Assembly (NCBI GenBank): GCA_902799355.1
Contig: CADCAG010000013.1
Coordinates: forward strand, 1 to 56,121
DNA length: 56,121 nt
Source of the DNA: an uncultured Bacteroidales bacterium
Lineage (GTDB): Bacteria; Bacteroidota; Bacteroidia; Bacteroidales; Bacteroidaceae
Direction of reading: 5' to 3'
The notes beneath the pieces were generated by a model, which worked only from the letters and a program-made list of their open reading frames with translations, did not search any database and was not told where the DNA came from. Shown one piece after another: positions 304-53,613 of this stretch. Position 1 is the first letter of the stretch. Each line of letters begins with the position of its first letter. A program made the position numbers and the translations under genes.

Positions 304-361
304 AATTTGTTTCCTTTCTTTATTTTAGTTAATAATTTGTTGTTGTTTGATTTTCTTGATG

Positions 362-392
362 CAAAGTTATGGTAAAAAAAGTCTAGTTCCAA
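362..392 (-). promoter_or_regulatory. Bacteroidota-type promoter of tssD
   Basis: On the minus strand a TAACTTTG -7 box (complement of 362-369) is preceded by a TTG (complement of 390-392) with a 20-base spacer, matching the TTTG-N19-21-TAnnTTTG pattern. The predicted transcript would have a leader of roughly 55 bases containing the purine-rich GAAAGGAAACAAATT before the ATG. Confidence 0.55.
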
Positions 393-420
393 CTTTTTTT
401 CTGGTTTTTAGTTCGGTTAT

Positions 421-479
421 ATGCGACAGTATCGTTGTATTGCGACAAACTGGAGTCGATGTCGCGATTTGTGTCGCAA
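421..479. promoter_or_regulatory. Cluster of four GCGACA/TGTCGC sites upstream of the SpoIIE-type gene
   Basis: Two direct copies (ATGCGACA at 421-428, TTGCGACA at 440-447) are followed by two inverted copies (TGTCGCGA at 460-467, TGTCGCAA at 472-479). Spacings of 19, 20 and 12 bases place them near helical repeats. They lie about 50-100 bases upstream of the predicted -33 box at 527-530, a usual place for activator sites. The same pair of octamers recurs upstream of the MATE/ATPase fusion gene. No regulator is identified. Confidence 0.4.
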
Positions 480-526
480 AGAGAATGGCAATAATAAAAG
501 AAAAAACAAAAAAAATCTTTTTTTGC

Positions 527-557
527 TTTGTTCTTCGCTCACTTATTCGTACCTTTG
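527..557 (+). promoter_or_regulatory. Promoter of the SpoIIE-type phosphatase gene
   Basis: TTTG at 527-530, a 19-base spacer and TACCTTTG at 550-557 form a near-consensus Bacteroidota promoter. Transcription would begin around 562-566, so the leader before the ATG at 566 or 578 is very short. This argues against translation from more upstream in-frame starts. Confidence 0.65.
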
Positions 558-565
558 TAGCGTTA

Positions 566-2659
566 ATGGAAAATGGAATGAAGAGAGGACTGAGGTCTAT
601 GACTGTTATCGTGGCTATGATGTTGATAGTCATGATGTTATTTTCGTGTGACAAGACTCAGCGCGAAGAGCTGAAGGCTGGCCATGCTGACAGTCTGATC
701 TTTGCTGCTGGTGCTGTGATGCAATATGATCGATTGCTGACGCTGGTAGACAGTTTTGATGCGACGGGAGATATCAATAAGCTTGATGCCTATCGCTGGC
801 GTGGAGCCTACTACTATCACCAGAATCAGTATCGCATGGCAGAGGTGTGCTTCCGAAATGCGCTGGACTATGAGGTGAAGACGGATTTCGACCAGTTGGT
901 GTATAATAAGGTGGTACGCCGACTGTCGGAACTGCTGGTTGTGCGCGGCGACTATGAAGGTGCGCTGCAGATTGCCGTACCAGCCATTGGGCGTATGGAC
1001 AAGACGGGCATTGGCTCAGACATCGACTATGCCATCCTCTTCAACAACATGGGCGTCTGCCAGTTAAACCTGGGACAGGAGAAGGAGGCCAAGGAGAGTT
1101 TTATGAAGGCTCGCGACCGCTATACCAACCGCTGCGAGACAGACTCTACGAGTCGTGGCTATCAAGAGGCTGTGCTGGGAACGGTATATACCAGCATGGC
1201 ATATATCAATACCCGCCGCTATGAGGAGTCTATCTACTGGATAGACCGCACACAGACGTTGCTTGACCAGTATCGCCAGCGCTCGGATGCCCGTAAGCAG
1301 TACTTCGACGAATACCAGGGACGTATCGAGATCATGCGTGCCACAGCCCTGCAGGGTCTGGGTAAGAACAAAGAGGCCTACGAGGCCTATAAGCGTTTCA
1401 AGACTACCGCCTTCTCTGAGACGGGTGTCGGTAGGGTGCATGGTAACGGCTATCTGGTCTCTGCCCAGCGCTACAAGGAGGCCGCCGAGAACTACCGCTA
1501 CTTGGACAAGGCCATGCAGGAGCAGGGCTTGGAGCCTACGTTGGACGTTATCCAGCTATATATGCTGCCCAAATACCACGCCAACTATCAGGCTCATCGT
1601 GAGGACTCTGCACGGCGGATGGGTATGCACATTCTCTCTCTGCTTGACACGGCCATCACTACCCAGAAGTTGAGTGCTTCGGCAGAGTTGGCTACCATCT
1701 ACCACACCAACGAGAAAGAGGCAGAGATCGGTCGCCAACAGTCCAAGATGGCGATGATACAAATGATTGCCGGACTAGCCACGCTGGGACTAATCATCAT
1801 ATTCCTGCTGTTCTACACGTTCCACAAGCGTAGGGCCGCCCACCGTCTGCGTGCTGCCCACGAGAAACTGGAGGAGGCCCACCAGAAGCTGAAGGGAGCC
1901 TACGACCAGCTGGAAGAGACGACACAGGCCAAAGAGCGTATTGAGAGTGAGCTGCGTATTGCCCGTAACATCCAGATGTCGATGGTGCCTAACACCTTCC
2001 CCACCCGCGAGGGTCTGGACATGTATGCCTCGATGACACCAGCCCGTGAGGTCGGTGGCGACCTCTATGGCTACGTGATGATAGACGACGAGCTGTACTT
2101 CTGTGTGGGTGACGTGAGTGGCAAGGGTGTTCCTGCCTCGCTGTTCATGGCACAGGCTACGCGACTGTTCCGCATCTTGGCTACCCAGCACATGATGCCT
2201 GCCGAGATAGCTACCCGCATGAACAGTGTACTGACGGAAAGCAACGAGCAGGGCATGTTCATCACTATGTTCATTGGTCTGGTGAATCTGACATCAGGAC
2301 GTCTGGACTATTGTAATGCGGGTCACAACCCACCTGTGCTGGGTGTCGACGGCGACGACCACTTCATGGAGATGGAGTCGAACGCGCCTATTGGTCTGTG
2401 GCCTAATCTGGAGTATATCGGTGAGCATGTGGACAATATCCGACAGAAGCTGCTACTGGTATATACCGACGGTCTTAACGAAGCAGAGAACCTTCAACAG
2501 GAGCAGTTCGGTGAAGACCGCCTGCTCGACATCTTGAATCACCGCCATTTCAACAGTTGTCGTGAGCTGGTAGAACATCTGAACGAACAAGTCGCCAAAC
2601 ACCGTGATGGTGCTGATCCCAACGACGACCTGACGATGATGTGTCTGATGGTATTGTAG
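566..2659 (+). CDS. TPR-containing SpoIIE/RsbU-type PP2C phosphatase with lipoprotein-like N-terminus
   Basis: The product is about 697 residues from the ATG at 566 (578 is an alternative). Upstream in-frame starts are rejected because the promoter at 527-557 lies inside them. Order of parts: a hydrophobic N-terminus ending in a lipobox-like LFSC, an alpha-helical TPR-like region to about residue 390, one transmembrane helix (IAGLATLGLIIIFLLFYTF), a coiled coil, then a SpoIIE-type PP2C domain over the last 240 residues. Metal-site motifs are intact: EVGGDLYG, DVSGKGVPASLF, YTDGLNEAEN and NDDLTMMCL. Such enzymes dephosphorylate serine or threonine on anti-anti-sigma (STAS) proteins in partner-switching pathways, but no STAS gene is visible here. 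The TPR region probably senses a periplasmic partner. Gene gpmI follows about 80 bases downstream. Confidence 0.85.
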   Translation: MENGMKRGLRSMTVIVAMMLIVMMLFSCDKTQREELKAGHADSLIFAAGAVMQYDRLLTLVDSFDATGDINKLDAYRWRGAYYYHQNQYRMAEVCFRNALDYEVKTDFDQLVYNKVVRRLSELLVVRGDYEGALQIAVPAIGRMDKTGIGSDIDYAILFNNMGVCQLNLGQEKEAKESFMKARDRYTNRCETDSTSRGYQEAVLGTVYTSMAYINTRRYEESIYWIDRTQTLLDQYRQRSDARKQYFDEYQGRIEIMRATALQGLGKNKEAYEAYKRFKTTAFSETGVGRVHGNGYLVSAQRYKEAAENYRYLDKAMQEQGLEPTLDVIQLYMLPKYHANYQAHREDSARRMGMHILSLLDTAITTQKLSASAELATIYHTNEKEAEIGRQQSKMAMIQMIAGLATLGLIIIFLLFYTFHKRRAAHRLRAAHEKLEEAHQKLKGAYDQLEETTQAKERIESELRIARNIQMSMVPNTFPTREGLDMYASMTPAREVGGDLYGYVMIDDELYFCVGDVSGKGVPASLFMAQATRLFRILATQHMMPAEIATRMNSVLTESNEQGMFITMFIGLVNLTSGRLDYCNAGHNPPVLGVDGDDHFMEMESNAPIGLWPNLEYIGEHVDNIRQKLLLVYTDGLNEAENLQQEQFGEDRLLDILNHRHFNSCRELVEHLNEQVAKHRDGADPNDDLTMMCLMVL

Positions 2660-9088: not shown

Positions 9089-11083
9089 TCAGGACTCTTT
9101 CTTGTACTGTATGGCCAGCATGGTGAGGTCGTCGCTCTGCTCGGCAGCACCGGCAAAGAAGTGGACGGCAGCAGTCATGCGCTGAACAAACTGCATGGGC
9201 TGGTTCTGTCCCTTTGCTAACAACTCTTTGGCGAGTGACAGGACTTGCTCATCGCCAAACTGCTGATGAAGCGCATTCTCTGCCTCGTTGAGACCATCGG
9301 TAAACAAGAAGATGGTGGTCTGTGGGGCTATGGTGGTCTCCTGGACGGTGAAGTCCCAGTCATCCATCACACCAATGGGCAGGTTGGCATCGCAAGGCAA
9401 TACGCCAACTCCTTGGCCTATCAGCAATGGTGCATCGTGGCCTGCATTACAATAGCGCAATACGCCCGTCTGCAGGTCGAGAACACCTATGAACATGGTG
9501 ACGAACATATTCATCTCGTTGCTCTCGCTCATCGATTCGTTAAGGGCCTTAGCGATGATATTGGGTTCTGGAACATGGGCAGAGATGTTACGGAACAGCG
9601 AACGTGCCACAGCCATGAACATAGAAGCGGGAACACCCTTGCCACTGACATCACCAATACAGAAGAAGAGCTTCTCGTCGCGGATGTAGAAGTCGAAGAG
9701 GTCGCCACCAACAGCCTTGGCAGGCGTTACCTGACCGTAGATATCGACATCGTTACGTTCCGGATAGGGTGGGAAGGTCTTGGGCAACATGGACATCTGG
9801 ATGGCGTGAGCAATGTTCAGCTCACTCTCGATAGTAGCCTTCTCGGCCGTTGTCTTCGTCAGTTGCTCCGTATATTCAGCCAACGACTGCTCCATCTTTT
9901 CGAAAGAGTCGCGCAACAGGTGTATCTCGTCACGACTCTTCAACTGTGGTAGGGCTGCCTTGAAATTACCCTTTGCCACATCCTCAGCTGAGAATGCCAG
10001 CAGTCTGATGGGTAGAGAGGCTTTGGTGATGGCTCTACGTGCTGTGATAATCACCACCATCAGGTTTATAACAATGAAGGAGAATACAATACCTGCCAAG
10101 ATATAGAACCCCCATACAATGTAAGTGTAATTAATCGCCATACCTATCGTCCAAGGGGTGTCTTCTACAGGTCGATAATTGACAAGCATTTCTTTACCTT
10201 CAATTTCCAACACATCTTCAGTGTCTCCTTTTCTTTTCAGAATTTTGTCAGTACAGATGTTTTTGGGATCATTGGTGACAAGCTCCTGGAACTTCTTGTT
10301 GATGATACGTTGTTCATCGGGGTGTGCCAGGAAGGTACCTGTAGAGTCTATGACAAAGAAATATAAATCGTTATCATTGTCTGATTTCACCTCAACACTG
10401 TTGTTTTTCTCTTTGTAAAGAAGTGACCAAATGGAACTTTTAAGCCAGTCGACAGACAAATCTACGCCCAATATCGCAACAAGCTGTTGCTGACGGTTAT
10501 GGATAGGCACCATATAGGATACCAATGGTGTCGTTTTGTCTGTTCCTTCAAAGAAGGGGCTCGACCAGTAGGAAGAATCTCTCTGTAGGGCCTCTACGAA
10601 CCAGTTGGCTTGAAGATAGTCATGTTGCTTGCTGCCAATGTTCAGCCGCTCAATAGTCACACTGTCTCGACGAACGGCATAGGGGCAAAACCAATGTCCT
10701 TTCTGAGGATAGTAGTTATCCACAAAGCTGATGCCACAACTACGGACCAACTCGTTCGTACGCACCATATGATCCATGATGTCATAGAGCTTCTCGGGAT
10801 TGTCCAGATTATCCTCGATATAATGAATGGTGTTGTTGGCCGCTACCATGACTTCTGACGATACACGGCGAGCCTCTACATATTGTCTATTGGTTAGTTG
10901 TGAAAAAAGTACGACACCAAAACCGTATGTTAGGAAATATCCTCCCAGATAGAGGATTAACATTGGCATGGCCATGAATATCAGCATGCGGAGTATGATA
11001 CGGCGTGTCAGTCGACTACCAAAAGATTTGGGATAGGGGTTGTCTGACTTCTTCCAGAGTCTTGATAATAGGTCTTTTATCAT
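9089..11083 (-). CDS. Membrane sensor SpoIIE/RsbU-type PP2C phosphatase (Cache-HAMP-PP2C)
   Basis: The 664-residue product has a first membrane helix around residues 31-58 (ILRMLIFMAMPMLILYLGG), a large extracytoplasmic domain of Cache type (ending WTIGMAINYTYIVW), a second helix near 322-350, a HAMP linker with DVAKGNFKAALP, a coiled coil, and a SpoIIE-type PP2C domain. Active-site motifs are intact: AVGGDLFDF, DVSGKGVPASMF, FTDGLNEAEN, QSDDLTMLA. The linker ESELNIAHAIQMSML is closely similar to that of the phosphatase at 566-2659, so the two are paralogous outputs with different sensors. It probably reads a small extracellular ligand and dephosphorylates a STAS-type protein encoded elsewhere. 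It sits 24 bases behind the symporter gene, at the tail of the dcw run. Confidence 0.9.
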   Translation of the reverse strand: MIKDLLSRLWKKSDNPYPKSFGSRLTRRIILRMLIFMAMPMLILYLGGYFLTYGFGVVLFSQLTNRQYVEARRVSSEVMVAANNTIHYIEDNLDNPEKLYDIMDHMVRTNELVRSCGISFVDNYYPQKGHWFCPYAVRRDSVTIERLNIGSKQHDYLQANWFVEALQRDSSYWSSPFFEGTDKTTPLVSYMVPIHNRQQQLVAILGVDLSVDWLKSSIWSLLYKEKNNSVEVKSDNDNDLYFFVIDSTGTFLAHPDEQRIINKKFQELVTNDPKNICTDKILKRKGDTEDVLEIEGKEMLVNYRPVEDTPWTIGMAINYTYIVWGFYILAGIVFSFIVINLMVVIITARRAITKASLPIRLLAFSAEDVAKGNFKAALPQLKSRDEIHLLRDSFEKMEQSLAEYTEQLTKTTAEKATIESELNIAHAIQMSMLPKTFPPYPERNDVDIYGQVTPAKAVGGDLFDFYIRDEKLFFCIGDVSGKGVPASMFMAVARSLFRNISAHVPEPNIIAKALNESMSESNEMNMFVTMFIGVLDLQTGVLRYCNAGHDAPLLIGQGVGVLPCDANLPIGVMDDWDFTVQETTIAPQTTIFLFTDGLNEAENALHQQFGDEQVLSLAKELLAKGQNQPMQFVQRMTAAVHFFAGAAEQSDDLTMLAIQYKKES

Positions 11084-35769: not shown

Positions 35770-35777
35770 TATATTTG
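35770..35777 (+). promoter_or_regulatory. -7 box of the five-gene signalling operon
   Basis: TATATTTG at 35770-35777, 22 bases before the ATG at 35800, with no clear TTTG at -33. It faces away from the GH31 promoter across about 85 bases. Confidence 0.5.
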
Positions 35778-35799: not shown

Positions 35800-36717
35800 A
35801 TGATACCAGAAGACAACATAAGAACACGAGAGCGGGAGGCCGTCAAGAGCACGACCGCCTCAAAAGCCAAGCCTTCCGATAGTGAAGGCGAAGGTCAATG
35901 CCCCCACTGTGGGGCTATCGTTTCAACCGCCTACGAGATTTGTCCGGAGTGCGGTTGGAAACTAGTGAACTATTGTACTTTCTGTGGTGCACCCATGAGT
36001 CCTAATGACATGGACTGTCCGGAGTGTGGCATGCCTGCCGATGGCGTGATGTGTCCCACCTGTAATGTCCGTAACTTCCGTCCGTTCTGTAAGCAGTGCG
36101 GTCAACCTCTGTCGCGTGCGGCAAGGATGGCGGTAGAGAAGGCAAAGAAAGACCCGAAGGTACAAGAAGCTGCCCGTCTGCTGAAACAGATTGCCAAGTT
36201 ACAGGCAGAATTGGACGCTGCCAGTAGCGAGACTGAGGAAGAAGAACCTGCAGGACCTACTGAAGGCGAACTACGTCTGCAGGCACTGATGGCCAAGGTT
36301 GGCTTTACGGCTGCTGAGAAGCCTAAAGTCGTCACTAAGAGTAAGAATAGTCGCAGTCGTGAGGCGATTCTTGCTGAATACCAGAAGGCCGTAGATGCTG
36401 CCAATCGCGTGATGGAAGAGATGCTGCCACCGGCAGGTAGTACGCCACAGGAACAGCGCAACTATTATACCGCCCGTAAGGTGGCCATGATGGAACTCAT
36501 CGAGGAGACCTTCTATGGCATCAACCCTAGAGACACCATGGGTTGGAAATGCTACCATTGTCAGATTATCCACGACAACCCGTCGCAGTGCGAATTCAAA
36601 GAATTAGGTGGTGAGTGGGTGAAATGTGAGAATTGGAAGATGTGGGATGTGGTAGATGCTGCCACTCCTGGTGCTGTATTAGTATCGAGATATTCAGAGA
36701 AAAAGGTATATAAATAA
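35800..36717 (+). CDS. Multi-zinc-ribbon protein, first gene of the kinase/AAA/FHA/PP2C operon
   Basis: This 305-residue cytosolic protein opens with a run of CxxC knuckles between residues 31 and 105: CPHCG, CPECG, CTFCG, CPECG, CPTC and CKQCG, forming about three zinc ribbons (DZR-like). A helical coiled-coil middle follows (LKQIAKLQAELDAASSETE). The C-terminal 100 residues are unlike anything I recognise and end in another cysteine set (CYHCQIIHD and WVKCENW). No enzyme motif is seen. The ribbons resemble those starting the AAA+ and FHA proteins of the same operon, so it may dock with them. The kinase gene follows after 9 bases. Confidence 0.75.
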   Translation: MIPEDNIRTREREAVKSTTASKAKPSDSEGEGQCPHCGAIVSTAYEICPECGWKLVNYCTFCGAPMSPNDMDCPECGMPADGVMCPTCNVRNFRPFCKQCGQPLSRAARMAVEKAKKDPKVQEAARLLKQIAKLQAELDAASSETEEEEPAGPTEGELRLQALMAKVGFTAAEKPKVVTKSKNSRSREAILAEYQKAVDAANRVMEEMLPPAGSTPQEQRNYYTARKVAMMELIEETFYGINPRDTMGWKCYHCQIIHDNPSQCEFKELGGEWVKCENWKMWDVVDAATPGAVLVSRYSEKKVYK

Positions 36718-36726
36718 GTATCAGTT

Positions 36727-39700
36727 ATGGACGAACAGAATAACATACAGAATTCTGTCGAAGAGCCACAGAAGACTGCTGTGGCTCCACAGAAAACCGC
36801 CGTTGCCCCTCAGAAGACGGCAGTAGCGCCACAAAAGACAGCCGTTGCTCCTCAAAAGACAGCGGTAGCTCCTCAGAAAACTGCCGTTGCTCCGCAAAAA
36901 ACGGCTGTTGCCCCTGGTATGGGTGCCCCGCAGAAGACAGCCGTAGCTCCGGGTATGAGTTCGCAGCCGACTGCCGCTCCTCAGCCTGCCGACGAGAAGG
37001 AGATTACGGTAGGTGGCAAGACTTACCAAGTAGAGAAACTCATCAGCAGTGGTACGGAAGGCGATGTTTTCATCGTCACTGACGGCCATCGCCGCTATGC
37101 CCTCAAGCGTTGTCACCCAGGTTTCCAGACCAATATGGCCGTCATGCCTGCCCTGCAGAAGCTGAATGGCAAGGGGTATATCGCTGATATCTACGACTGT
37201 GCTGCCGACTTCGAACTGCTGGAGTGTATTCCAGAGGGTAGTGCTGCTTCCGCCAACATCCGAGGCAACGCCCAAGCCATCTTGGCTATTGCTGTCAAGA
37301 CAGCTATGGCCCTCGACCAGATGCATAAAGTAAACATCCTTCACAAGGATGTCAAGCCCGCCAACATCCTCATCAAAGACACCAATACGTGGGATTGCGT
37401 GCTGTGCGACTTCGGTATTGCTGACATCTTGAAAGCCGATGGTACCGTCAGCACCCCGCAGAACCGTACCATCATCTATGCGGCTCCTGAGATGTATGCC
37501 AAGGATAATATTATCTTCAACGAGGGAAATACCTACTCTGAGCTGACAGCCAAGGCCGACTACTATTCTCTTGGTATGACCATCTTGTCACTCTGGATGG
37601 GCGAGGGGGCCTTCTTGGCTAAGGAGCACGAGTTGGCCATGGATAAGAACAAGGGCCGCATCACCGTGCCTGAAGACATGCCCGACCCACTGGCGAAGAT
37701 CTGTCGCGGACTGCTCATCAAAAGTGTTGAGAAGCGCTGGGATTATGAGAAGATAGAGCGTCAACTTAATGGTGAGGATGTACCCGTCGACGAGGCCATC
37801 ATCATTGAGGACTTGAATATCACGTTCAATGCTGCCAAGCATCTGGTGGCAAACAACCCCGAAGAGCTGGCCGCCTGCATGGAGGAAGACCCAGAATTGG
37901 GTACGAAATACCTCTACCGTGGACAGTTGGAGACGTGGCTGAAGCCCTATCCTGAGCTGGCCATCGAGATGCAGGAGATTGTTGAGAAGCGCTATCCCAA
38001 GAATCAGCAGATGGGTTACTATGCAGCCCTCTGTGCGCTGAATCCTGCCAAGCCCTTCAGTCTCACTGGTACTAACCGTGAGACAGGCGAGGAGATGTCG
38101 ATAGATGCTGTTACGCTGAAAGACGTTAGCAACTTCTGCAACGAGGCCATCCTCAGCGCCAACTCCATGGATGATGTCTCAGCAGATATATTTAAGGAGT
38201 GGGTGCGCGCGCGTTATGCCTCTGTTGTCAAGGATTTCCCCAACCTCGACGATACCCACGAGCCAGCTGATGTCCACATGCTTCGCATACAGATGATCGA
38301 CCCGCTGTCCGACATCAACCTGCGCAACGACCCGTCACACCCCGACTATGCCATGACGGGAGAGGCGATAGGTCGTTTTCTGAATAAGGTATACAACATC
38401 TACTGGAACATCTGCGAAGGTGACATCGACTCTGTAGAGCGTATATGGAACAAAGAGGAATATGCGCCGATGAATCATCAGATATCAGCAGCGACAGTGG
38501 TTGCTGTGGCTTCCTGTTTTGTTGACAATGAGAGTCACTATATCACCAATTTCTTCAATACCAAGGGTAACCGTTTCAAGGAGCAGATGCGCTGGTACCT
38601 GTCAGCTACTGACATCGACGACGAAGACTATCAGAAGAAGGCTGGCCCTGGCGATGGCACCTTCTTCGCCCAACAGTCATGGATGAAGGTCATCAAAGGC
38701 TACGGTGCCACTCCTGAATACGATCTGGTAGAGTCTGGCAAGACCGTTACCACCCTTGACGAGTTGTTCCGTGAGAATAAGAAGACCTTGAAGATAGAGT
38801 ATGAGGAACGTGGTTTGATGGGCTTCCTGGCAGTGAACCGCATGGAAGACCCCACCGCTGATCTGAAGCCGAAGTTCGCCTATGAGGAACTGTTGCAGCA
38901 GTATGTGGAAGACCTCGCAAAGATTGACGACAAGATGGAACCCGTCACGCGTTTCCGTCAGGCTGTCAAGGAGGCCGAGAAACTGATCAGTGAGGGTAAG
39001 TCAAAGATTCGCGGTCTAGTGGCTCGCAACATCACACAGTATGTGCTCAGCATAGTCTTTGCTGTGGTTCCTGCTGTGCTGCTGCTCGCCATGCTGCTGT
39101 TCTCTATCATTGAGAATCCTGTTGTCAATACCGATACCCTCGACATCTGGAAATATATCTGGGTCATTGGTCTGGTCATGGCTGCCGTCATCTATTCCAA
39201 GACAGAAGATGCAGGCTGTCTGCCAGCCATCATCGGTGGCGTCATACTGACAGTACTACTCGTCATAGCGGTGAAATTCCTCGGACAGTATATTCTGTAT
39301 TTCTATGCCCTCATCACGCTGGCTACCCTGCTGTTCTTCGGATGGAAGACGCTCTTCTCGCCCAGCAAGTATGCCGAGACAGCCCGTAAGTTCAACAAGC
39401 CAGGCTTCGAGGAGAAGGTACTGGAGCCCCTCTACTTCGCCTTCAGTGACGAGGAAGAGTTTGACTCCTCGCTGAATGCTGCCTTCAACGATGACGAGAT
39501 GAACGGCTGGAGGGCTGACCTGAAGGTGCGCCGCTGGTTTATGTTTATGTTCATCGGTGCCGTATGGTTCCTGTTGCTGTTCAGCATGCTTATTCCTAAG
39601 AGCGAGCGATTCAACAGATACTCGGCACCGCTGGTAGAGAAGATTTTCGGTAAGACCGTGGAACCCGAGAAGATTCCCGCCTATCTGGAGCTGCCCATGC

Positions 39701-40302
39701 AGCGTGGCGATCAGGGCGAACAAGTCAGGAAGCTGCAGGAGTTCCTCTTCCAGCAGGGCTATACGAAGAACCGTCCTGATGGTGACTTCGGCCGTGGCAC
39801 GGAGAAGGTTGTCAAGGCCTTCCAGAAGGCTGTAGGTCTGGATGCTACGGGTGTCGTTGATGCCAAGACCATCGAGACCATCAACAAGATAGTCGCAGAG
39901 ACTCCTAAGGAGGAACCTGCCGCAGAGCCTGCCATCGAACAGAAACCTGCCACGACAACGAAGTCAAAACAGAGCGCTCAGCCCAAGGAAACTACTGCCC
40001 AACCTGCAGAGGCTACACAGCCTGCTGCTGCCCAGCCCGCCAAGACAGTGACGACAGGTACGGCGGTCAGTGGTCCAAAGAGTACGGGTACTGCAACCAC
40101 AGGTACTGCAACTACGGGTAAGGCTACGACAGGTACGGCTACTACTGGTAGGGCCACGACCGGTAGGCCGGGTACCGCCACTACCTCTAAGCCTGCCACC
40201 GCAACGCCTGCTACTACTACTGCTCCTGCCTCAAACGGCAACTCCGTATCCTTGGATCAGCTCCTGAAAGCATCAAAGAATAAGAATAACTCAGAACAAT
40301 AA
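36727..40302 (+). CDS. Transmembrane Ser/Thr protein kinase with PQKTAVA repeats and peptidoglycan-binding-like domain
   Basis: The 1191-residue product has, in order: eight PQKTAVA peptides (residues 14-74), a Hanks-type kinase domain from about 98 to 350 with SSGTEGDVF glycine loop, Lys127, HKDVKPANIL (Asp208), DFG at 228-230 and APE at 253-255, so it looks active; a long region of unknown fold (about 350-765); five hydrophobic helices (about 768-875 and 936-957); a PG_binding_1-like domain (about 988-1055, LPMQRGDQGEQVRKLQEFL); and a Thr/Ala/Pro-rich tail with GTATTGKATTG-type repeats. An odd number of helices puts the last domain in the periplasm and the kinase in the cytosol, like PASTA kinases but with a different wall sensor. 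Next gene after 9 bases. Confidence 0.88.
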   Translation: MDEQNNIQNSVEEPQKTAVAPQKTAVAPQKTAVAPQKTAVAPQKTAVAPQKTAVAPQKTAVAPGMGAPQKTAVAPGMSSQPTAAPQPADEKEITVGGKTYQVEKLISSGTEGDVFIVTDGHRRYALKRCHPGFQTNMAVMPALQKLNGKGYIADIYDCAADFELLECIPEGSAASANIRGNAQAILAIAVKTAMALDQMHKVNILHKDVKPANILIKDTNTWDCVLCDFGIADILKADGTVSTPQNRTIIYAAPEMYAKDNIIFNEGNTYSELTAKADYYSLGMTILSLWMGEGAFLAKEHELAMDKNKGRITVPEDMPDPLAKICRGLLIKSVEKRWDYEKIERQLNGEDVPVDEAIIIEDLNITFNAAKHLVANNPEELAACMEEDPELGTKYLYRGQLETWLKPYPELAIEMQEIVEKRYPKNQQMGYYAALCALNPAKPFSLTGTNRETGEEMSIDAVTLKDVSNFCNEAILSANSMDDVSADIFKEWVRARYASVVKDFPNLDDTHEPADVHMLRIQMIDPLSDINLRNDPSHPDYAMTGEAIGRFLNKVYNIYWNICEGDIDSVERIWNKEEYAPMNHQISAATVVAVASCFVDNESHYITNFFNTKGNRFKEQMRWYLSATDIDDEDYQKKAGPGDGTFFAQQSWMKVIKGYGATPEYDLVESGKTVTTLDELFRENKKTLKIEYEERGLMGFLAVNRMEDPTADLKPKFAYEELLQQYVEDLAKIDDKMEPVTRFRQAVKEAEKLISEGKSKIRGLVARNITQYVLSIVFAVVPAVLLLAMLLFSIIENPVVNTDTLDIWKYIWVIGLVMAAVIYSKTEDAGCLPAIIGGVILTVLLVIAVKFLGQYILYFYALITLATLLFFGWKTLFSPSKYAETARKFNKPGFEEKVLEPLYFAFSDEEEFDSSLNAAFNDDEMNGWRADLKVRRWFMFMFIGAVWFLLLFSMLIPKSERFNRYSAPLVEKIFGKTVEPEKIPAYLELPMQRGDQGEQVRKLQEFLFQQGYTKNRPDGDFGRGTEKVVKAFQKAVGLDATGVVDAKTIETINKIVAETPKEEPAAEPAIEQKPATTTKSKQSAQPKETTAQPAEATQPAAAQPAKTVTTGTAVSGPKSTGTATTGTATTGKATTGTATTGRATTGRPGTATTSKPATATPATTTAPASNGNSVSLDQLLKASKNKNNSEQ
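36766..36948 (+). repeat. Coding repeat: eight PQKTAVA units
   Basis: Seven tandem 21-base units (36766-36912), a 15-base PGMGA spacer, then an eighth unit (36928-36948). All eight peptides are identical, while the codons differ at many third positions (for example ACT, ACC, ACG and ACA for Thr). The peptide therefore seems to be kept by selection rather than by recent slippage. Confidence 0.9.
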
Positions 40303-40311
40303 TACATCACC

Positions 40312-43300
40312 ATGAATTGCAATAAATGCGGAAGAGAAAACAGACCTGAGGCCAGCTTCTGCCGCTTCTGCGGAGAACCGCTGGTACAGGAGTCTACCCA
40401 GAAGGGACTGATAGGCAAAGCCTCCATCACGGCCATTCTTGACGACCTCGACAACAAACTCCAGGTGGCCAAGGTAGTAGCCCAAAATGGTACACGTATC
40501 GGTCTTGACTGTCTGATTCTTGGCGACTCAGGCACGGGAAAGAACTTTATCGCCAACCTCATCGTCTCCAAGATGCTGGCTAGTGGCGTAGTGAAAAAGG
40601 CTGCCACCAAGGTCGATGCCGCCGACTGGGACGATTTCGCCAGCGACTTCGACAAGAAGATTGCCGGACTGAAGGACGGCGTGCTGCTCATCACCAATGC
40701 ACAGAAATTGCTGCCCACCTCGAAGGCCTCTGACGTCAACCAGCTCGACAAGCTGTTCACTCGCATGCGTAACACCGAGGGAGCACCCATCGTTATCATG
40801 TGTGGTCTGCACAACGACTTGGCAGAGTTCCTGGAGAACAACAAGGACGTACACCGCCTCTTCGAGTTCGACTTCATCCTGCCAGCCTTTGGCCTCAATG
40901 ACCTCACGGAGCTGACCTTGGAACTGCTGAAAGAGAAATATAAGGTGGAGGCTGCTGATGACCTGAGCGCTAAACTCAAGGCCCACTTCGGCTGGTATAT
41001 GCGCCAGACGGACGTCGGCCATACCAATGGTCACCTGTCAGAGAAGGTGGCAGAGGGCCTCTACGTAAAAGCTACCCTCCGCGGCAGCAAGGTCGTCGAG
41101 GCACAGGATATTGACACGTCAGAGTGCTTCATTCCTAAGACCGAGGAACAGATACTCGCTGAGCTCGACGACTATGTGGGCTTGCAGAGTGTGAAGGACG
41201 AGATTCGTGCCATCATCCGCAATGTCAAGGCCAAGAAGGAGAACGGTGTGAAGGACAAGCTGCTGAAAGACCACTACCTCTTCACGGGTAACCCTGGTAC
41301 GGGTAAGACCACCTTCGCCCGTAAGTTTGGTGAGGTGCTCAATGCCATCGGTGCACTGCCTACCGGCCAGTTTGTCGAGGTGCCTGCGAAAGACTTCATC
41401 GGCCAGTTCATTGGTGATAGTGAGGCCAACGTCAAGAAGTACGTTGACAAAGCCATGGGTGGCGTGCTGTTCATCGATGAGGCTTATGCGTTGAACCAGT
41501 CAACGGGTGGCTATGGCATGGATGCCGTCAACACGCTGCTGACGCTCTTGGAGAACCGTAAAGGTGAGTTTGTCTGCGTCATGGCTGGTTACACCAAGGA
41601 GATGGGCGAATTCGTCCGTATGAACCCTGGCATCCCGTCACGCTGCAATGTCACTATTGAATTCCCTGACTATACGGCCCGTGAACTGGAGACGTTGTTC
41701 CGTAACATGCTGTTGCGCAACAATGAGAGAACGGAGTTTACCCTTGATGCCAAGGCAGAAGAGATGCTGCCCAAGGTCTTCGACAAGATGTACCTCAAGC
41801 GCAGCGACACCTTCGGTAATGCCCGCGAGGTGCGCAACCTCTTCGACCTGGCTGTGAAGCGCCATCGTCTGCGCAACGCCACTGACGACGTGCTGACCTA
41901 TGCCGATATCGTGGGCGAGGATGCTACCGAGGAGATCTCTGTCGACGACATCATGAAGGAGTTCGACAGCTTTGTAGGCATGCAGAGTGTGAAGGATGCC
42001 GTGCGTCGCATCGCCAAGGAGATAGCTGTACAGAAACAGCTCATTGAGATGGGCGAGGCTGCCGAGGGTCTTACCAAGTATAACTTCATCCTGACAGGTA
42101 ACCCTGGCACGGGTAAGTCTACTGTGGCACGCATCTTCGGTAAGGTCTTCAAGGCCTTGGGTGTGACATCTACCGACCGTGTGACGGAGAAGGTGCCCAA
42201 GGACATTATCGGACAATTCGTTAATGAGTCCGACAAGAAGATGGATGCAGCCATCAACGAAGCCATGGGTGGTGTGCTGTTCCTGGACGAGGCATACGAC
42301 CTGGAACCGATGGATGCTGCAGGTAAGAGCACGTCGTCGGAAGGCAAGAAGGCCGTCCAGCTGCTCATGACACGCATGGAGAATGAGGCCGGTAAGTTTG
42401 TGGTCATCTGTGCAGGCTATCCTAAGGAGATGACAACCTTCATGAATTCCAACCCAGGTCTGAAGCGTCGCTTCTCACATACCATCCATATCGAGGACTA
42501 TACCGCTGACGAGCTGCTCGAGATTTACGAGCGTGCTGCCAAGGCCAAGAAGTACAACTTCTCGCTGGCTGACGACGCCGTACGCATGAAGGCGCTGAAC
42601 ATGTTCCGCAACATGATAGCCATGAAGGACGACAAGTTCGGCAATGCCGGCGAGGCCATGAAGAAGGTCGCCGAGACCAAGACAAACATCAACAACCGCC
42701 TGATGAGTATCCCACCCGACCAATGGACGCCAGAGGTGCTGCATACCGCTCTTGCTGAGGATATTCCTTACGAGGAGCCTGCCAAGGTGTCTATCGAGGA
42801 CTGTCTCGCTGAGCTGAATGCGCTGATTGGCCTGGGTGGTGTGAAGGATGCGTTGACCAAGCTGGCTCATACCATCAACAACGAGATAGAGAGTGCCAAG
42901 CAGGAGAACCGTCGTCCGGAGATTCCGCTGGGCCACTACCTCTTCCTGGGTAATCCTGGTACGGGTAAGACCACCGTCGCCCGTCTTATGGGTAAGATTC
43001 TCTACTCGATGGGTGCTCTGCCTACGCCTAATGTCGTGGAGGTCGGCAAGTCGAACCTCGTAGGCAGGTATGTCGGCGATACGGAGGCTATCACCTCACA
43101 CGTCATCGACACCGCTATGGGTGGCATCCTGTTCATCGATGAGGCCTATCAGCTGGCTTCCGACCAGTTCGGTCGCAACGCCTTGGAGGTACTTGTCGCC
43201 CGACTGGAGAATGACCGCGGCAAGTTTGTCTGCATCGCTGCGGGCTATACCTACGAGATGGAGTCCTTCATCTCTGAGAACAGCGGCTTTGAGTCGCGCT

Positions 43301-43593
43301 TCCCACAGCGTAATCGCATCACTTTTGAGGACTATAATCCTGAGGAGTTGTTCCAGATATTCATGATTTATGCCAATAAGGGAGGCTACGTGCTCGACCA
43401 GATGGCGGAGAATGCCGTACGCGGCAAGCTCACCATGCTCTATAACAACCGTGGACGCTCGTTCGGCAACGGACGCGATGCCCGTAACCTCTTTGACGAG
43501 GTAAAGAGCAACCTTGCCGCACGCCTGGCAGAAGAAGGCGGAACCCATACCCCAGAGGAACGTAAAACAATAAAGATGGAGGATGTATTATGA
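40312..43593 (+). CDS. Zinc-ribbon protein with four AAA+ modules (CbbX/SpoVK-like)
   Basis: The 1093-residue product begins with a zinc ribbon (CNKCG, CRFCG; Cys 3, 6, 17, 20). A first P-loop module (GDSGTGKN at 71-78) has a degenerate Walker B (GVLLITNAQKL, no acidic pair). Three canonical CbbX/CbxX-type modules follow, each opening with a GLQSVKDEI-like motif: Walker A GNPGTGKTT near 326, 597 (GKST) and 880, and Walker B LFIDEAY or LFLDEAY near 387, 656 and 941. CbbX-like AAA+ proteins remodel protein complexes by threading a peptide end. Having three to four modules in one chain is unusual. The stop overlaps the FHA gene by 4 bases (ATGA), implying fixed stoichiometry. Confidence 0.88.
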   Translation: MNCNKCGRENRPEASFCRFCGEPLVQESTQKGLIGKASITAILDDLDNKLQVAKVVAQNGTRIGLDCLILGDSGTGKNFIANLIVSKMLASGVVKKAATKVDAADWDDFASDFDKKIAGLKDGVLLITNAQKLLPTSKASDVNQLDKLFTRMRNTEGAPIVIMCGLHNDLAEFLENNKDVHRLFEFDFILPAFGLNDLTELTLELLKEKYKVEAADDLSAKLKAHFGWYMRQTDVGHTNGHLSEKVAEGLYVKATLRGSKVVEAQDIDTSECFIPKTEEQILAELDDYVGLQSVKDEIRAIIRNVKAKKENGVKDKLLKDHYLFTGNPGTGKTTFARKFGEVLNAIGALPTGQFVEVPAKDFIGQFIGDSEANVKKYVDKAMGGVLFIDEAYALNQSTGGYGMDAVNTLLTLLENRKGEFVCVMAGYTKEMGEFVRMNPGIPSRCNVTIEFPDYTARELETLFRNMLLRNNERTEFTLDAKAEEMLPKVFDKMYLKRSDTFGNAREVRNLFDLAVKRHRLRNATDDVLTYADIVGEDATEEISVDDIMKEFDSFVGMQSVKDAVRRIAKEIAVQKQLIEMGEAAEGLTKYNFILTGNPGTGKSTVARIFGKVFKALGVTSTDRVTEKVPKDIIGQFVNESDKKMDAAINEAMGGVLFLDEAYDLEPMDAAGKSTSSEGKKAVQLLMTRMENEAGKFVVICAGYPKEMTTFMNSNPGLKRRFSHTIHIEDYTADELLEIYERAAKAKKYNFSLADDAVRMKALNMFRNMIAMKDDKFGNAGEAMKKVAETKTNINNRLMSIPPDQWTPEVLHTALAEDIPYEEPAKVSIEDCLAELNALIGLGGVKDALTKLAHTINNEIESAKQENRRPEIPLGHYLFLGNPGTGKTTVARLMGKILYSMGALPTPNVVEVGKSNLVGRYVGDTEAITSHVIDTAMGGILFIDEAYQLASDQFGRNALEVLVARLENDRGKFVCIAAGYTYEMESFISENSGFESRFPQRNRITFEDYNPEELFQIFMIYANKGGYVLDQMAENAVRGKLTMLYNNRGRSFGNGRDARNLFDEVKSNLAARLAEEGGTHTPEERKTIKMEDVL

Positions 43594-44183
43594 TACAGTG
43601 TCCTGAATGTAGAGAAATGATTCTTGATGATAGTGCTTTCTGCGACAAGTGCGGAAAGGAGCTGCATTGGTGTCCGGAATGTAAACGTCCCAAACGTGGC
43701 ACAGAGTGTCCCGTATGTGGCAACGACCTTATACCTGGTCGCAAATACCTGGCCATGATAGAGAGTGGAGAGATACCGTCTGCCCAGCCACAGACTACAA
43801 CACCACCGAAGCCACAGAATACCGAACCTATCCAACAGCCTGTGTCGGCACCGCAGAGCCAGCCTGCAGAGCAGCCTCAGCGCACTGCCGTGGCAGGAGC
43901 TGTTGCTGTACCGACGGCACTCGTTGGCAATGGCTGGCGCCTGCAGTTACAGGCTGGCGCCTTTGGTCGTGTGGGTGGCATGTGGCCTGAGCTGAGCACC
44001 TGCACTTATGTCTCCAGCAACCATGGAGTGATAGCCAGGACGGCTACCGGTTGGACCATTACCGACAACGGTACCACTAACGGAACATATGTCAATGGCG
44101 CACGCCTAGCGACAGGCACACCTGTCGCTATCGCCAAGGGCAACAGTGTGAGAATAGCAACCCTTGAATTTACTGTAGAATGA
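43590..44183 (+). CDS. Zinc-ribbon/FHA phosphothreonine-binding adaptor
   Basis: The 197-residue protein has two zinc ribbons at the start (CPECRE, CDKCG, CPECK, CPVCG; residues 4-43), a Pro/Gln-rich linker with PQRTAVA at 96-102, and a C-terminal FHA domain (about 113-197). FHA hallmarks are visible: GR at 126-127, SSNHG at 142-146, and TTNGTYVNG around 162-170. FHA domains bind phosphothreonine peptides. The linker peptide matches the PQKTAVA repeats of the kinase two genes upstream. It overlaps its neighbours by 4 bases on both sides, so the AAA+, FHA and PP2C proteins are translated together. Confidence 0.88.
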   Translation: MIQCPECREMILDDSAFCDKCGKELHWCPECKRPKRGTECPVCGNDLIPGRKYLAMIESGEIPSAQPQTTTPPKPQNTEPIQQPVSAPQSQPAEQPQRTAVAGAVAVPTALVGNGWRLQLQAGAFGRVGGMWPELSTCTYVSSNHGVIARTATGWTITDNGTTNGTYVNGARLATGTPVAIAKGNSVRIATLEFTVE

Positions 44184-44914
44184 AAGTCGAGATTGATGCC
44201 CTTTGTCATAAGGGGCTTGTACGCGACAATAACGAGGATGCGCTGTCTGTTGGTGGCTTCATCCTCCGTGATAATGTGACCAATATCACCGTCGACACCC
44301 CAGAGGAAGGTTCCTTCTATCTGCTGGTGTCCGACGGTATGGGAGGCCACGACGATGGCGAGGAGGCCAGCGCATTCACCCTCAACGAGATTAAGAAGAA
44401 GTTTAACGACCAGCTGATTGGCGCCGAGACTTTTGAGGATGACATTCGTACCACCACCAATACCATCTCTATGCAGCTCAACCAAATGGCGGCTGAGAAA
44501 GGACAGCAGCTGCCTATGGGTTGCACGCTGACAGGTGTCGTCTGGCACTATGGTTGCGTATGGCTTGTCAATGCTGGTGACAGCCGTACCTACCGCTTTC
44601 GCAATGGCATGTTGCGCCAGCTGACCATCGACGAGACGGAGCGAGGCATCACGGGTAACCCCAACGCCGACAAATTCTTGCTTAACTGCATTGGCGCAGG
44701 TCAGGAGGGGCGTCTTACCATTATTGATATGGAAGGCAAGTTCCTGGAGGACGATATCATACTCATCTGCTCTGATGGTCTCACCGATATGGTCACTGAC
44801 GAGCAGCTGGAGGAAGCTCTCGCGGAGGGTACTACGGCTGCCGACCTCTATCGCCTGGCCTGCGAGGGCGGTGGCGTCGATAATGTCTCCGTCATTCTCG
44901 CACGTATTAAGTAA
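44180..44914 (+). CDS. PP2C-type Ser/Thr protein phosphatase
   Basis: The 244-residue single-domain PPM phosphatase carries all metal-binding motifs: RDNNEDAL, VSDGMGGHDDGEEAS, TLTGVVW, VNAGDSRTYRF, CSDGLTDMV and VDNVSVILAR. It is the natural counter-enzyme to the kinase of the same operon and is comparable to the PrpC/Stp and PppA families. It has no membrane or targeting segment. The start overlaps the FHA gene by 4 bases. The GH3 gene follows 22 bases later and could be on the same transcript. Confidence 0.93.
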   Translation: MKVEIDALCHKGLVRDNNEDALSVGGFILRDNVTNITVDTPEEGSFYLLVSDGMGGHDDGEEASAFTLNEIKKKFNDQLIGAETFEDDIRTTTNTISMQLNQMAAEKGQQLPMGCTLTGVVWHYGCVWLVNAGDSRTYRFRNGMLRQLTIDETERGITGNPNADKFLLNCIGAGQEGRLTIIDMEGKFLEDDIILICSDGLTDMVTDEQLEEALAEGTTAADLYRLACEGGGVDNVSVILARIK

Positions 44915-51819: not shown

Positions 51820-53613
51820 ATGAAAGCAGATCATATCAGAAAACCGTATCTCGCATACGCAGAGTTGACAACTTTTATCATTGCCAGCGTTTGTAATTCA
51901 ATCATCCTGCAGGCTAATGTCTTCATAGACGCTGTGATCGTGGGCAATTACGTCAGCACCGATGCGATGGCTGTCATCAACCTGTTTGCTCCGCTGCTCA
52001 TCTTAGTAACGATGGTCCCCATGCTGTTGGCAGAGGGATCGATGGTGGCTGGTTCACGCGCTTTTGGTGAGCAAGACTACCCTCAGGTGAATCGTACGTT
52101 CATGGTTAACCTGGCAGGCGGTCTGTTCTTCTCGCTGGCTGCAGCCCTGCCCATCTCGCTGTTTGCCCCGTCGCTGGTAGGTCTTTATACCGACAATGCA
52201 CGTCTCTATCCGCTGGCTCTCGACTATCTGCCCGCAGCAGCGTTCATCGGTGTCGCATTCGCCATTCAGAACAGCTATACTGTGTTCCTACAACTGATAG
52301 GTAAGGCCCAGCTGGTGGTCAGAGTCACCATTGTCCAGATGATGATTAATCTGCTGTTCGACATGCTGTTCATCGTCGTCTTCGGCTGGGGCCTTCAGGG
52401 CGCCGTCTATGCCACTATCTGCAGTTATCTGCTGTCGTTGGTGATGATTGTTCCCGAGGTGCGTCGCCAGTGGCGCATCTTCGCCCTCATGTCTGTATTC
52501 CGTTCCTGGTTCCCCTCGCTTATCTGGCGTTGTGGCAAACTTGGACTTTCCGACGCTACAGGCTCGTTCGTCTCAGTCATCATCTTCTCTGGCATCAATG
52601 CAGCAGCCCAGCACCTCTATGGAGCTGACGGTCTCGTCGTGGTAAGCGTATTCATGCAGATGCTCTCTGTCGGTTCACTGGTTACGATGGGTGTCATCTT
52701 CTCCATGCAGTCGCTTGGCATGACCTTCCTGGGCGAGAACGACCTTCGCGGCTATCGCATGGTTATCAGCCGCAGCCTGCTCATCGTCATAGTTTGTATG
52801 AGTATCATCAGTTTGGCTATGGGACTGTTGCCCGAGTTGCTGCTTAGCTGTTTCGGAGCTGATGAGCACCTGATAGCTTTCGCCAGCCAGCCCATCACGA
52901 TTCTCAGCACCGCTCTGCTGCCGTTTGCCCTCCTGTTCTACTATTGCTCTGTCTATGTCACCCAGAATCGCGTTCGACTGTCGATAGGCGTCATCCTTTC
53001 CGAGCCGCCGTTCATCCTGGCTACGCTGTGGGTTATGGAGCACTACTTCCCAGGACTCTTCTGGTGGTTCTTCCCCGTGGGTGTTGTCATCGCCCTTGCC
53101 GCCTGTCTTGCAACAGCCTGGATGATTTCTCGCCGCAATCCTATGGTCGATCGTTTCACCCTCGCTCCCAAGACCGTCGATGCTCCTTATCTCGACTACT
53201 CCTTGAACTACGATGAGCAGGAGGCCCGTTCTGCTTTCCGCGACATCCTGAAGTATCTCGATATCTGCGAACTGTCGAAAGATTTGTCCAATCGTATTGC
53301 CGTCTGCGCTGAAGAGATTATGAACAGCCTCATTGGCTTGAATACCCAGGAGAGCGAGTCCAACCGTCATTTCTACGATATACGCATGATGGAGATGATG
53401 GACGCTGAGGGCACTCAGTCGTGCGGCATACAGTTCTTCTTGAAGGCGCGTGGCAAGTCCTTCAACCCTGTCCGCGAACTCTCTCTCAATACCGACTCCA
53501 TGATGACAGGCAATGCGCTCAGCCTGCTCCTCGTCAACAAGCTCTGCGACCATATTGACTACAACTATCGCAATGGTGTCAACTGCGTCGTCATGACGTT
53601 TCTTAAATCATAA
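51820..53613 (+). CDS. MATE-family transporter fused to an RsbW-like ATPase domain
   Basis: Residues 1-445 form a twelve-helix MATE-type multidrug/cation antiporter: FIIASVCNSIILQANVFIDA, YVSTDAMAVINLFAPLLIL and AFIGVAFAIQNSYTVFLQL with repeated symmetry in the second half. The last 145 residues are soluble and look like a GHKL (HATPase_c/RsbW-like) domain: RIAVCAEEIMNSLIGLN (N-box) and a closing NALSLLLVNKLCDHIDYNYR helix-strand. Single-domain MATE proteins end near residue 450. Related fusions occur in Bacteroidota and Firmicutes, but their role is unclear. RsbW-type domains are kinases or anti-sigma factors countered by SpoIIE-type phosphatases, two of which are in this window. Confidence 0.82.
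   Translation: MKADHIRKPYLAYAELTTFIIASVCNSIILQANVFIDAVIVGNYVSTDAMAVINLFAPLLILVTMVPMLLAEGSMVAGSRAFGEQDYPQVNRTFMVNLAGGLFFSLAAALPISLFAPSLVGLYTDNARLYPLALDYLPAAAFIGVAFAIQNSYTVFLQLIGKAQLVVRVTIVQMMINLLFDMLFIVVFGWGLQGAVYATICSYLLSLVMIVPEVRRQWRIFALMSVFRSWFPSLIWRCGKLGLSDATGSFVSVIIFSGINAAAQHLYGADGLVVVSVFMQMLSVGSLVTMGVIFSMQSLGMTFLGENDLRGYRMVISRSLLIVIVCMSIISLAMGLLPELLLSCFGADEHLIAFASQPITILSTALLPFALLFYYCSVYVTQNRVRLSIGVILSEPPFILATLWVMEHYFPGLFWWFFPVGVVIALAACLATAWMISRRNPMVDRFTLAPKTVDAPYLDYSLNYDEQEARSAFRDILKYLDICELSKDLSNRIAVCAEEIMNSLIGLNTQESESNRHFYDIRMMEMMDAEGTQSCGIQFFLKARGKSFNPVRELSLNTDSMMTGNALSLLLVNKLCDHIDYNYRNGVNCVVMTFLKS

Follow-up and report, generated by a model that had tools for sequence, protein, structure and literature searches.

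Bacterial circuits in which a Ser/Thr kinase, a reader with an FHA domain and a PP2C-type phosphatase act together are known mainly from the firing of the type VI secretion system (T6SS) and from the control of the actinobacterial cell wall. The mycobacterial cell-wall set comprises the kinases PknB and PknA, the phosphatase PstP and the readers FhaA and FhaB; FHA proteins of the GarA/OdhI type are a further point of comparison, and the TerY-P triad includes a vWA protein (TerY). Here we describe a five-gene block, or cassette, that encodes a zinc-ribbon protein, a membrane kinase, a chain of AAA+ modules, an FHA protein and a PP2C. It lies in a stretch of 56,121 nucleotides from an uncultured Bacteroidales bacterium (contig CADCAG010000013.1), referred to as the window. 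Judged by its conservation at the sequence level, the cassette is a real and recurrent signalling unit, unnamed as far as the literature was searched. This search covered open-licence papers and found by title or abstract start no description of the kinase/AAA+/FHA/PP2C/zinc-ribbon combination, which may exist elsewhere; the initial annotation of the window, made from the DNA letters, had also named no counterpart.

According to PMC3953482, PpkA of the Agrobacterium T6SS marks Thr 14 of TssL, to which Fha then binds. The cassette resembles the T6SS threonine phosphorylation pathway in that Ser/Thr kinase, FHA reader and PP2C eraser are encoded together with their functional residues kept. It differs in the lack of a general T6SS linkage, in a zinc-ribbon FHA protein that stays under the cut-off of the T6SS model, in the tandem AAA+ chain and the zinc-ribbon protein, and in Thr repeats located on the kinase itself. 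With the mycobacterial PknB/PstP/Fha set it shares a kinase, a PP2C and an FHA reader in one locus, but it contains the AAA+ chain and no PASTA family among the matches listed (the window kinase scored 43.4 bits with the PASTA-kinase model, cut-off 450). Actinobacterial GTPase-centred systems include sets of a kinase (with a zinc ribbon), a PP2C and a vWA protein (PMC7159879). The passages of PMC7159879 and PMC8195603 on FHA, PP2C and zinc ribbons describe such sets and FHA effectors, not the five-gene set; CbbX is absent from those of PMC7159879, which mention no separate FHA adaptor together with a CbbX-like AAA+ chain. As in the kinase/PP2C/vWA and TerY-P sets, kinase, PP2C and zinc ribbons are found in one locus, and TerB stands beside one cassette of the window's own lineage (lineage 1). 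In contrast to TerY-P, the match lists of the five proteins (25 of 61 families listed for the AAA+ protein) contained no vWA family.

The initial annotation had proposed a run of five closely spaced genes, and the open reading frames (ORFs) confirmed it: all five were present on the plus strand, as are all window features below unless stated otherwise, separated by gaps of 9 and 9 bases and then by two overlaps of 4 bases. Gene 1 (ZR, 35800..36717) encodes a multi-zinc-ribbon protein of 305 amino acids (aa) with a double zinc ribbon (Pfam DZR, E 1.6e-9), and gene 2 (KIN, 36727..40302) a membrane Ser/Thr kinase of 1191 aa with Pkinase (3.4e-21) and PG_binding_1 domains. Gene 3 (AAA, 40312..43593) codes for a protein of 1093 aa with a zinc ribbon and four tandem CbbX/SpoVK-like AAA+ modules, in which Pfam detected AAA and AAA_lid_6 in three stretches each. 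It is followed by gene 4 (FHA, 43590..44183), with a product of 197 aa consisting of a double zinc ribbon (DZR), a flexible linker and an FHA domain, and by gene 5 (PP2C, 44180..44914), which encodes a soluble PP2C-type phosphatase of 244 aa (PP2C_2). CxxC ribbons had been noted at the start of three of the proteins; they do open the AAA+ and FHA proteins, but the first CxxC of ZR occurs at residue 34.

The order ZR-KIN-AAA-FHA-PP2C was complete in 94 of 107 non-duplicate loci (109 labelled, two duplicates removed), a set selected by AAA+ match in which some members are close kin of one another. The labelling profiles had been trained on 24 of the loci later labelled with them; among the last-fetched loci outside this training (L103-L162), 59 of 60 were complete. 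Nine of the 13 incomplete loci lie at contig ends (L032, L037, L044, L045, L074, L078, L085, L090 and L092). In L078, the AAA+ frame also ends early, 44 bp before the contig end, and two ORFs of 72 and 189 aa, the second nucleotidyltransferase-like by eye, are located between kinase and AAA+ (genome G047). The genes are tightly packed, with distances of up to 50 bp, overlaps counted, for ZR-KIN in 97/99, KIN-AAA in 101/106, AAA-FHA in 100/106 and FHA-PP2C in 102/103 pairs. A scan of named genomes yielded 32 loci. Sixteen of them (L031-L046) had an AAA+ protein 70-100% identical to that of the window and the cassette in the window's order as far as the contigs extend, with two additional genes between FHA and PP2C in L035; in the remaining 16, AAA+ relatives were present and the other four genes were undetected. 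Identity to the window's AAA+ protein falls to about 35% among cassette loci, reached in a second lineage (lineage 2) within the window's own genus, from which 78 loci were fetched in a non-random draw. Pairwise distances of the five proteins were correlated across the 94 complete cassettes (r 0.91-0.97) and across 75 second-lineage cassettes (0.78-0.92), a pattern that fits co-inherited genes and to which the shared species tree contributes. Full-model signatures above 200 bits were detected in 6 of 393 genomes across the order and in 7 of 395 across the phylum (G000 and G362 in both). Five of the seven phylum-wide signatures come from genomes of other classes; four of the corresponding cassettes were complete, and the remaining one, L090, begins at a contig end. 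A gene order that recurs in so many loci and over such divergence is not a product of chance.

The kinase catalytic domain (37024..37755) contains K127, D208, K210, N213 and D228. With gaps excluded, the first four (Lys, HRD Asp, Lys and Asn) were kept in 102/102 sequences and the DFG Asp in 103/103, and none of these positions hints at an inactive kinase. The N-terminal tail of the enzyme (36766..36948) carries eight copies of PQKTAVA, seven of them contiguous with no imperfect unit between and one past a 5-residue spacer; the kinase of L031 has eleven. The window copies differ on average at 4.7 of 21 bases, exclusively at third positions; as the copies were picked by identical peptide, this choice accounts in part for finding no replacements inside a copy. 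The third-position-only differences argue for selection on the peptide and not recent slippage. In contrast, three short copies in L070 are identical at the DNA level.

Tails from other loci differ in sequence and are similarly rich in Thr. The tail set comprised 100 tails, 97 of them distinct, after duplicate loci had been dropped and seven over-extended kinase starts trimmed by hand. Each of the 97 contained 3-14 Thr, and the Thr content was 11.1% in the tails versus 4.5% in the rest of the kinase. The pattern T[ILVMAF][RK] occurred 205 times, compared with 20.1 ± 4.2 times (highest 34) in 500 shuffles that preserve composition, not relatedness. The most frequent context was [DE][KR]T[ILV]R[PA], while tails of the window's lineage carry PQKTAVAP or near variants and other tails repeat DKTVVLGN, DKTLKPD, GTAIPQQ or TPMD. 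TPMD motifs are found in the short kinases of L091 and L093, whose genomes (G934 and G818) also carry a second-lineage signature. By these measures the kinase tail is under constraint, and its tandem Thr residues make it a candidate phosphothreonine array for FHA docking, a feature absent from the initial annotation. A search pattern for Q[KR]TAVA had hits at 11 places in the window's own genome, while a reversed-pattern control had three. Eight of the 11 fall in the kinase and one in the FHA protein's linker (PQRTAVA, 43875..43895); of the other two, one reads QQTAV and one is antisense inside a gene of 360 aa. No substrate in trans bearing the tail motif was seen in this genome. Both kinase and FHA protein carry the motif in the window, L031 and L033, which does not amount to a general rule.

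Downstream of the catalytic domain lies a conserved middle domain (37744..39027), taken as cytosolic, which belongs to no known family according to Pfam and PDB searches. Residues 340-790 of the window member matched no Pfam family at E <= 0.05 and one PDB entry at E 0.18; across 55 members, six Pfam families appeared at or below E 0.05, with a best value of 0.0087 and none of them in more than four members, and were treated as chance. Hydrophobic stretches at residues 768-959 define a transmembrane region (39028..39603), and their hydropathy suggests five helices, a cytosolic kinase domain and a periplasmic C-terminus. The latter includes the PG_binding_1 domain (39712..39879), predicted to be periplasmic and optional in the family. 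The description of the kinase as wall-facing in the initial annotation thus suits the window copy but not the family as a whole: PG_binding_1 was detected in 7 of 17 kinases, by alignment all of lineage 1, where L034 and L035 are without it, and the C-terminus varies in the other kinases.

Functional residues were likewise kept in the reader and the eraser. In the FHA pocket, at positions that we presume for the phosphothreonine-contacting Arg, Ser and Asn, the residues Arg, Ser, His and Gly were present in 104/104 and Asn in 102/104 sequences (gaps excluded), and with these residues the FHA protein is predicted to be a phosphothreonine reader. Its best NCBIfam match was FhaB/FipA with 41.6 bits, below the cut-off of 125 bits. 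The four Asp of PP2C, and all five scored positions, were found in 101/101 sequences (gaps excluded), and PP2C_2 in 16/16 aligned members; the window PP2C reached 120 bits with the Stp1 model, under the 230-bit cut-off. ZR has a conserved C-terminal domain, W.C...H..P..C...GG.W, with 22 invariant columns in 55 sequences and three weak PDB matches, the best (2e-4) to a double-zinc-ribbon protein.

As anticipated by the initial annotation, a module profile detected four modules in the window's AAA+ protein, the first much weaker than the others (49 versus 344-349 bits). Module 1 (40417..41034) keeps the Walker A Lys (106/106 sequences) and carries Asn where Walker B would have its Glu (103/106), so that it is predicted to bind ATP without hydrolysing it. 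Modules 2 (41164..41886), 3 (41962..42711) and 4 (42814..43539) have intact Walker A and B motifs, with the Walker A Lys and the Walker B Asp-Glu in all aligned sequences (103-106). Among 108 uncut chains, a total that counts both duplicate loci as well as two additional AAA+ proteins encoded upstream, four modules were counted in 99, three in four, five in three, six in one and two in one. The chain with six tandem modules, a protein of 1677 aa from L090 (G493), would in principle suffice for a ring made of one chain; one-chain AAA+ rings are known from dynein and midasin.

The modules match the structures of CbbX (3syk, E 7.9e-42, and 3zuh) and EccA1 (9lur). The window protein passes the models for SpoVK (587.5 bits, cut-off 422.95), EccA (554, cut-off 466.65) and CbbX (495.4, cut-off 459.25), and each model matches four stretches in the one chain. 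Since all three models are passed at once, none of these names should be used for it. The cassette chain differs from its namesakes by its 3-6 modules, the N-terminal zinc ribbon and the Asn at the Walker B Glu position of module 1. The CbbX Rubisco activase has a single module per chain, whereas cassette chains mostly have four (99/108); in EccA of the type VII secretion system, a helical (TPR-like) domain at the N-terminus precedes a single AAA+ module, in contrast to the zinc ribbon and four modules of the window protein. A Rubisco, spore or ESX context was not seen in the flanks viewed, which were not searched systematically.

Taking the single block, the functional residues of kinase, FHA protein, PP2C and modules 2-4, the tail and the Asn of module 1 as read from sequence, we propose a self-contained phosphothreonine signalling unit with an AAA+ machine as output, a reading for which our confidence is evenly balanced. 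A signal, presumably envelope stress where the periplasmic PG-binding domain exists, would cause the membrane kinase to phosphorylate itself, at the repeated Thr residues of the tail. The zinc-ribbon adaptor would then dock on the phosphorylated tail through its FHA domain, with several copies per tail, and the zinc ribbons of the adaptor, the AAA+ protein and ZR may link the components to one another and draw the AAA+ chain to the membrane. There, the tandem chain would thread or remodel a client, until PP2C removes the phosphothreonine marks and the assembly dissolves. An envelope signal and a recruitment of the AAA+ chain by the FHA protein had already been put forward in the initial annotation, and both keep their place here as presumed steps. 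More tentatively, and with somewhat more doubt than belief, the cassettes could constitute a previously undescribed class of machine, present in several Bacteroidota lineages, in which the multivalent phosphothreonine tail of the kinase racks FHA/zinc-ribbon adaptors and an AAA+ chain (3-6 modules, the first a nucleotide sensor) in a dynamic membrane assembly and acts as a direct kinase-to-unfoldase switch.

Several observations weigh against the proposed signalling unit. Of the 17 kinases, 10 have no PG_binding_1 domain. Four incomplete loci lie away from contig ends or not clearly at them. L091 and L093, of a divergent type, have no PP2C, a three-module AAA+ protein and another AAA+ protein upstream; L100 has no PP2C in the 1.5 kb up to the contig end; and L145 has no kinase or ZR above threshold, its ZR matches being weak and partial. 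Furthermore, the Thr motif depends on the lineage (TAVA versus TIRP, TVVLG, TPMD and TAIP) and the broader Thr pattern has fewer than two copies in 8 of 97 tails, so that a single fixed FHA specificity is not supported. The partners of the kinase mostly lack the motif: T[ILVMAF][RK] occurs in the linker of 6 among 95 FHA proteins and at the N-terminus of 34 among 95 ZR proteins.

A different role for the AAA+ chain is that of a reset or assembly factor, which would disassemble or refold the phosphorylated kinase-FHA complex; the output would then be another FHA-bound protein encoded elsewhere. The AAA+ protein is the slowest-evolving member of the cassette in lineage 2, with a mean identity of 80% versus 56-61% for the other four proteins, as in a core machine and not in a tuned effector, and a first module predicted to bind but not hydrolyse ATP would be compatible with a regulatory chaperone. 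The sequences do not separate this role from that of an output. The sole other in-frame copy of the tail motif found in the window's own genome, however, is within the cassette, and we consider a reset factor rather unlikely.

Within the window's genus, the N-terminal AAA+ signature was detected in 125 of 299 genomes (E up to 1e-60) and the FHA protein in 126 (E up to 1e-15). The two occurred together in 124; AAA+ was found alone in G920 and FHA alone in G821 and G1044, in searches of whole genomes, many of them incomplete, that scored 6-11 first-look candidates per genome. Of the 75 complete second-lineage loci, 74 have MetA after PP2C and 61 have an M13 peptidase ahead of ZR, encoded on the same strand, while 0/13 complete lineage-1 cassettes have either flank. 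The MetA match begins within 50 bp past the end of PP2C in 70 of the 75 loci (L064-L162), and cassette and metA may for this reason share a transcript. For an empty-site comparison, nine cassette-negative and two positive genomes were searched for MetA; the negative genome G026 had no match, leaving eight for examination. The M13 and MetA matches were 122-301 bp apart in six of these; of the other two, one had a distance of about 2.3 kb and one no M13 match in the stretch. Cassette protein matches were found in none of the eight M13/MetA stretches. As M13 and MetA abut in most of the cassette-negative genomes examined, gain or loss at this one site seems to involve all five genes together. Together with the 94 complete loci out of 107, these empty sites agree with the view that the five genes form one unit and are not usually found apart.

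The position next to metA would suit a CbbX-like activase, regulated by phosphorylation, for a metabolic enzyme such as MetA. Among solved structures, CbbX and EccA1 are the nearest to the AAA+ modules, and the distance of no more than 50 bp in 70/75 second-lineage loci would favour such a partnership. Yet MetA has the same neighbours in genomes without the cassette and stands beside none of the 13 complete lineage-1 cassettes, so that the MetA neighbourhood looks inherited. MetA as client was dropped on the empty-site comparison, and we regard an activase function as very improbable. A search for MetA in the window's own genome gave no match, which at a completeness of 83% carries no information.

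Lineage 1 was present in only 3 of the 299 genus genomes (G000, G1000 and G935), and G1000 and G935 carry the second lineage too. In the AAA+ tree, which has a midpoint root and some long, flagged branches, the window's lineage clusters with other Bacteroidales loci including Rikenellaceae, apart from the second lineage. The AAA+ sequence of L032 equals that of G935. Given the tree placement, the rarity in the genus and the coexistence with lineage 2, the simplest reading is that the genus acquired the window's lineage horizontally. A search of viral contigs returned 122 pattern matches to the N-terminal AAA+ signature, none confirmed as a relative, and AAA+ matches in 275 plasmid and 12 phage records were all below 60% identity (best eight of each viewed). 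A mobile-element origin was rejected on these grounds.

Some cassettes have neighbours of other functional types, among them those of L035, L036, L038, L041 and L043 from lineage 1. In L036, two TerB-domain proteins are encoded upstream and a protein with a RyR match (26.9 bits, Pfam cut-off 27.4) downstream (L036:3850-5951 and L036:16841-18682). By eye, L038 has similar genes, as has L043 on its downstream side. Next to the cassettes of L036, L038 and L043 there are also a protein of 559 aa and a small one that resembles a lipoprotein, with no Pfam match in L036; in L035, their relatives, with visible CxxCxGxG repeats, are located between FHA and PP2C. DUF4062 and DUF1963 proteins adjoin the cassette in L041 and a DUF1963 protein is found in L063. 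The distant cassette L086 has an SMI1/KNR4 (SUKH) gene between ZR and KIN (L086:3288-4082), and L087 has an SMI1/SUKH gene after PP2C. These neighbours hint at stress or conflict networks.

The cassette could accordingly be an inducible response to envelope or chemical stress (Ter-like) or an anti-phage module, either with a phosphorylation-switched AAA+ remodeller. Besides the TerB and RyR-match (L036), DUF4062 (L041) and SMI1/SUKH (L086, L087) neighbours, its patchy presence at a recurrent site (125/299 genus genomes) and the horizontal gain suggested by lineage 1 in genomes with lineage 2 are in line with such a system, as are PADLOC profile matches of the kinase (mad6, 3.2e-25; PD-T4-6, 1.2e-16) and the AAA+ protein (IetA, 1.3e-17). 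The kinase, however, scored 63.3 bits against a MAD6 cut-off of 460, and the IetA-type NCBIfam model gave 40 against 510; at scores so far under the cut-offs, the matches seem to reflect kinase and AAA+ domains in general. For ZR, FHA and PP2C there was no PADLOC family at E <= 0.01, lineage 2 occupies a housekeeping site, and no viral contig proved to carry the N-terminal AAA+ signature. A stress or conflict system seems to us a rather unlikely explanation.

A control of type VI secretion, as exerted by PpkA, Fha and PppA, shares the kinase/FHA/PP2C logic (PMC3953482). TssD was detected in 26 of 125 cassette genomes and in 20 of the 174 without a cassette, which gives an odds ratio of 2.0 (Fisher p 0.034, uncorrected for relatedness), and the window's own genome has five TssD matches and may thus have its own T6SS. 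On the other side, 99 of the 125 cassette genomes gave no TssD match, with incomplete genomes counted and TssD (PF17642) as sole T6SS marker, which upholds the initial statement that the set is not generally tied to T6SS. The FHA protein reached 32.6 bits with TIGR03354, the T6SS FHA model (cut-off 120.25), and no T6SS gene was seen in the viewed flanks, which were inspected mostly by eye and without a systematic search. T6SS control as a general role was rejected in view of the weak TssD association and the 99 genomes without TssD, and we rate it as highly improbable.

The partial tssD noted in the initial annotation was recovered at the window edge as a TssD/Hcp gene (1-303, minus strand) with a PF17642 match at 4-279 on the same strand. 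The window also encodes two SpoIIE-type phosphatases, of which one has TPRs and the other dCache-HAMP, and a MatE protein whose C-terminus matches HATPase_c_2 below Pfam's cut-off; located at 347-2659 (plus), 9089-11083 (minus) and 51820-53613 (plus), these are pieces of a partner-switching-like set. Upstream of ZR, TATATTTG (35770..35777) is a weak match to TAnnTTTG, which we take to be the consensus of the Bacteroidota -7 promoter element, and no clear -33 box was seen in the sequence scan. Promoter and terminator scans of the window were close to shuffles (11 versus 7.4 and 6 versus 6.9), and Rfam gave no match within it.

New in these loci are the attachment of an AAA+ chain to the kinase/FHA/PP2C logic and the candidate self-docking tail of the kinase, which makes the proposed mechanism directly testable. 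The block joins a phosphorylation circuit to a multi-module AAA+ remodeller; it is common in the window's genus, bacteria related to Prevotella, and more remote relatives occur in other parts of the phylum. If docking does take place on the tail, the cassette would be a compact and testable case of phosphorylation steering an unfoldase, and its naturally occurring variants in tail, sensor domain and AAA+ chain length would lend themselves to comparison.

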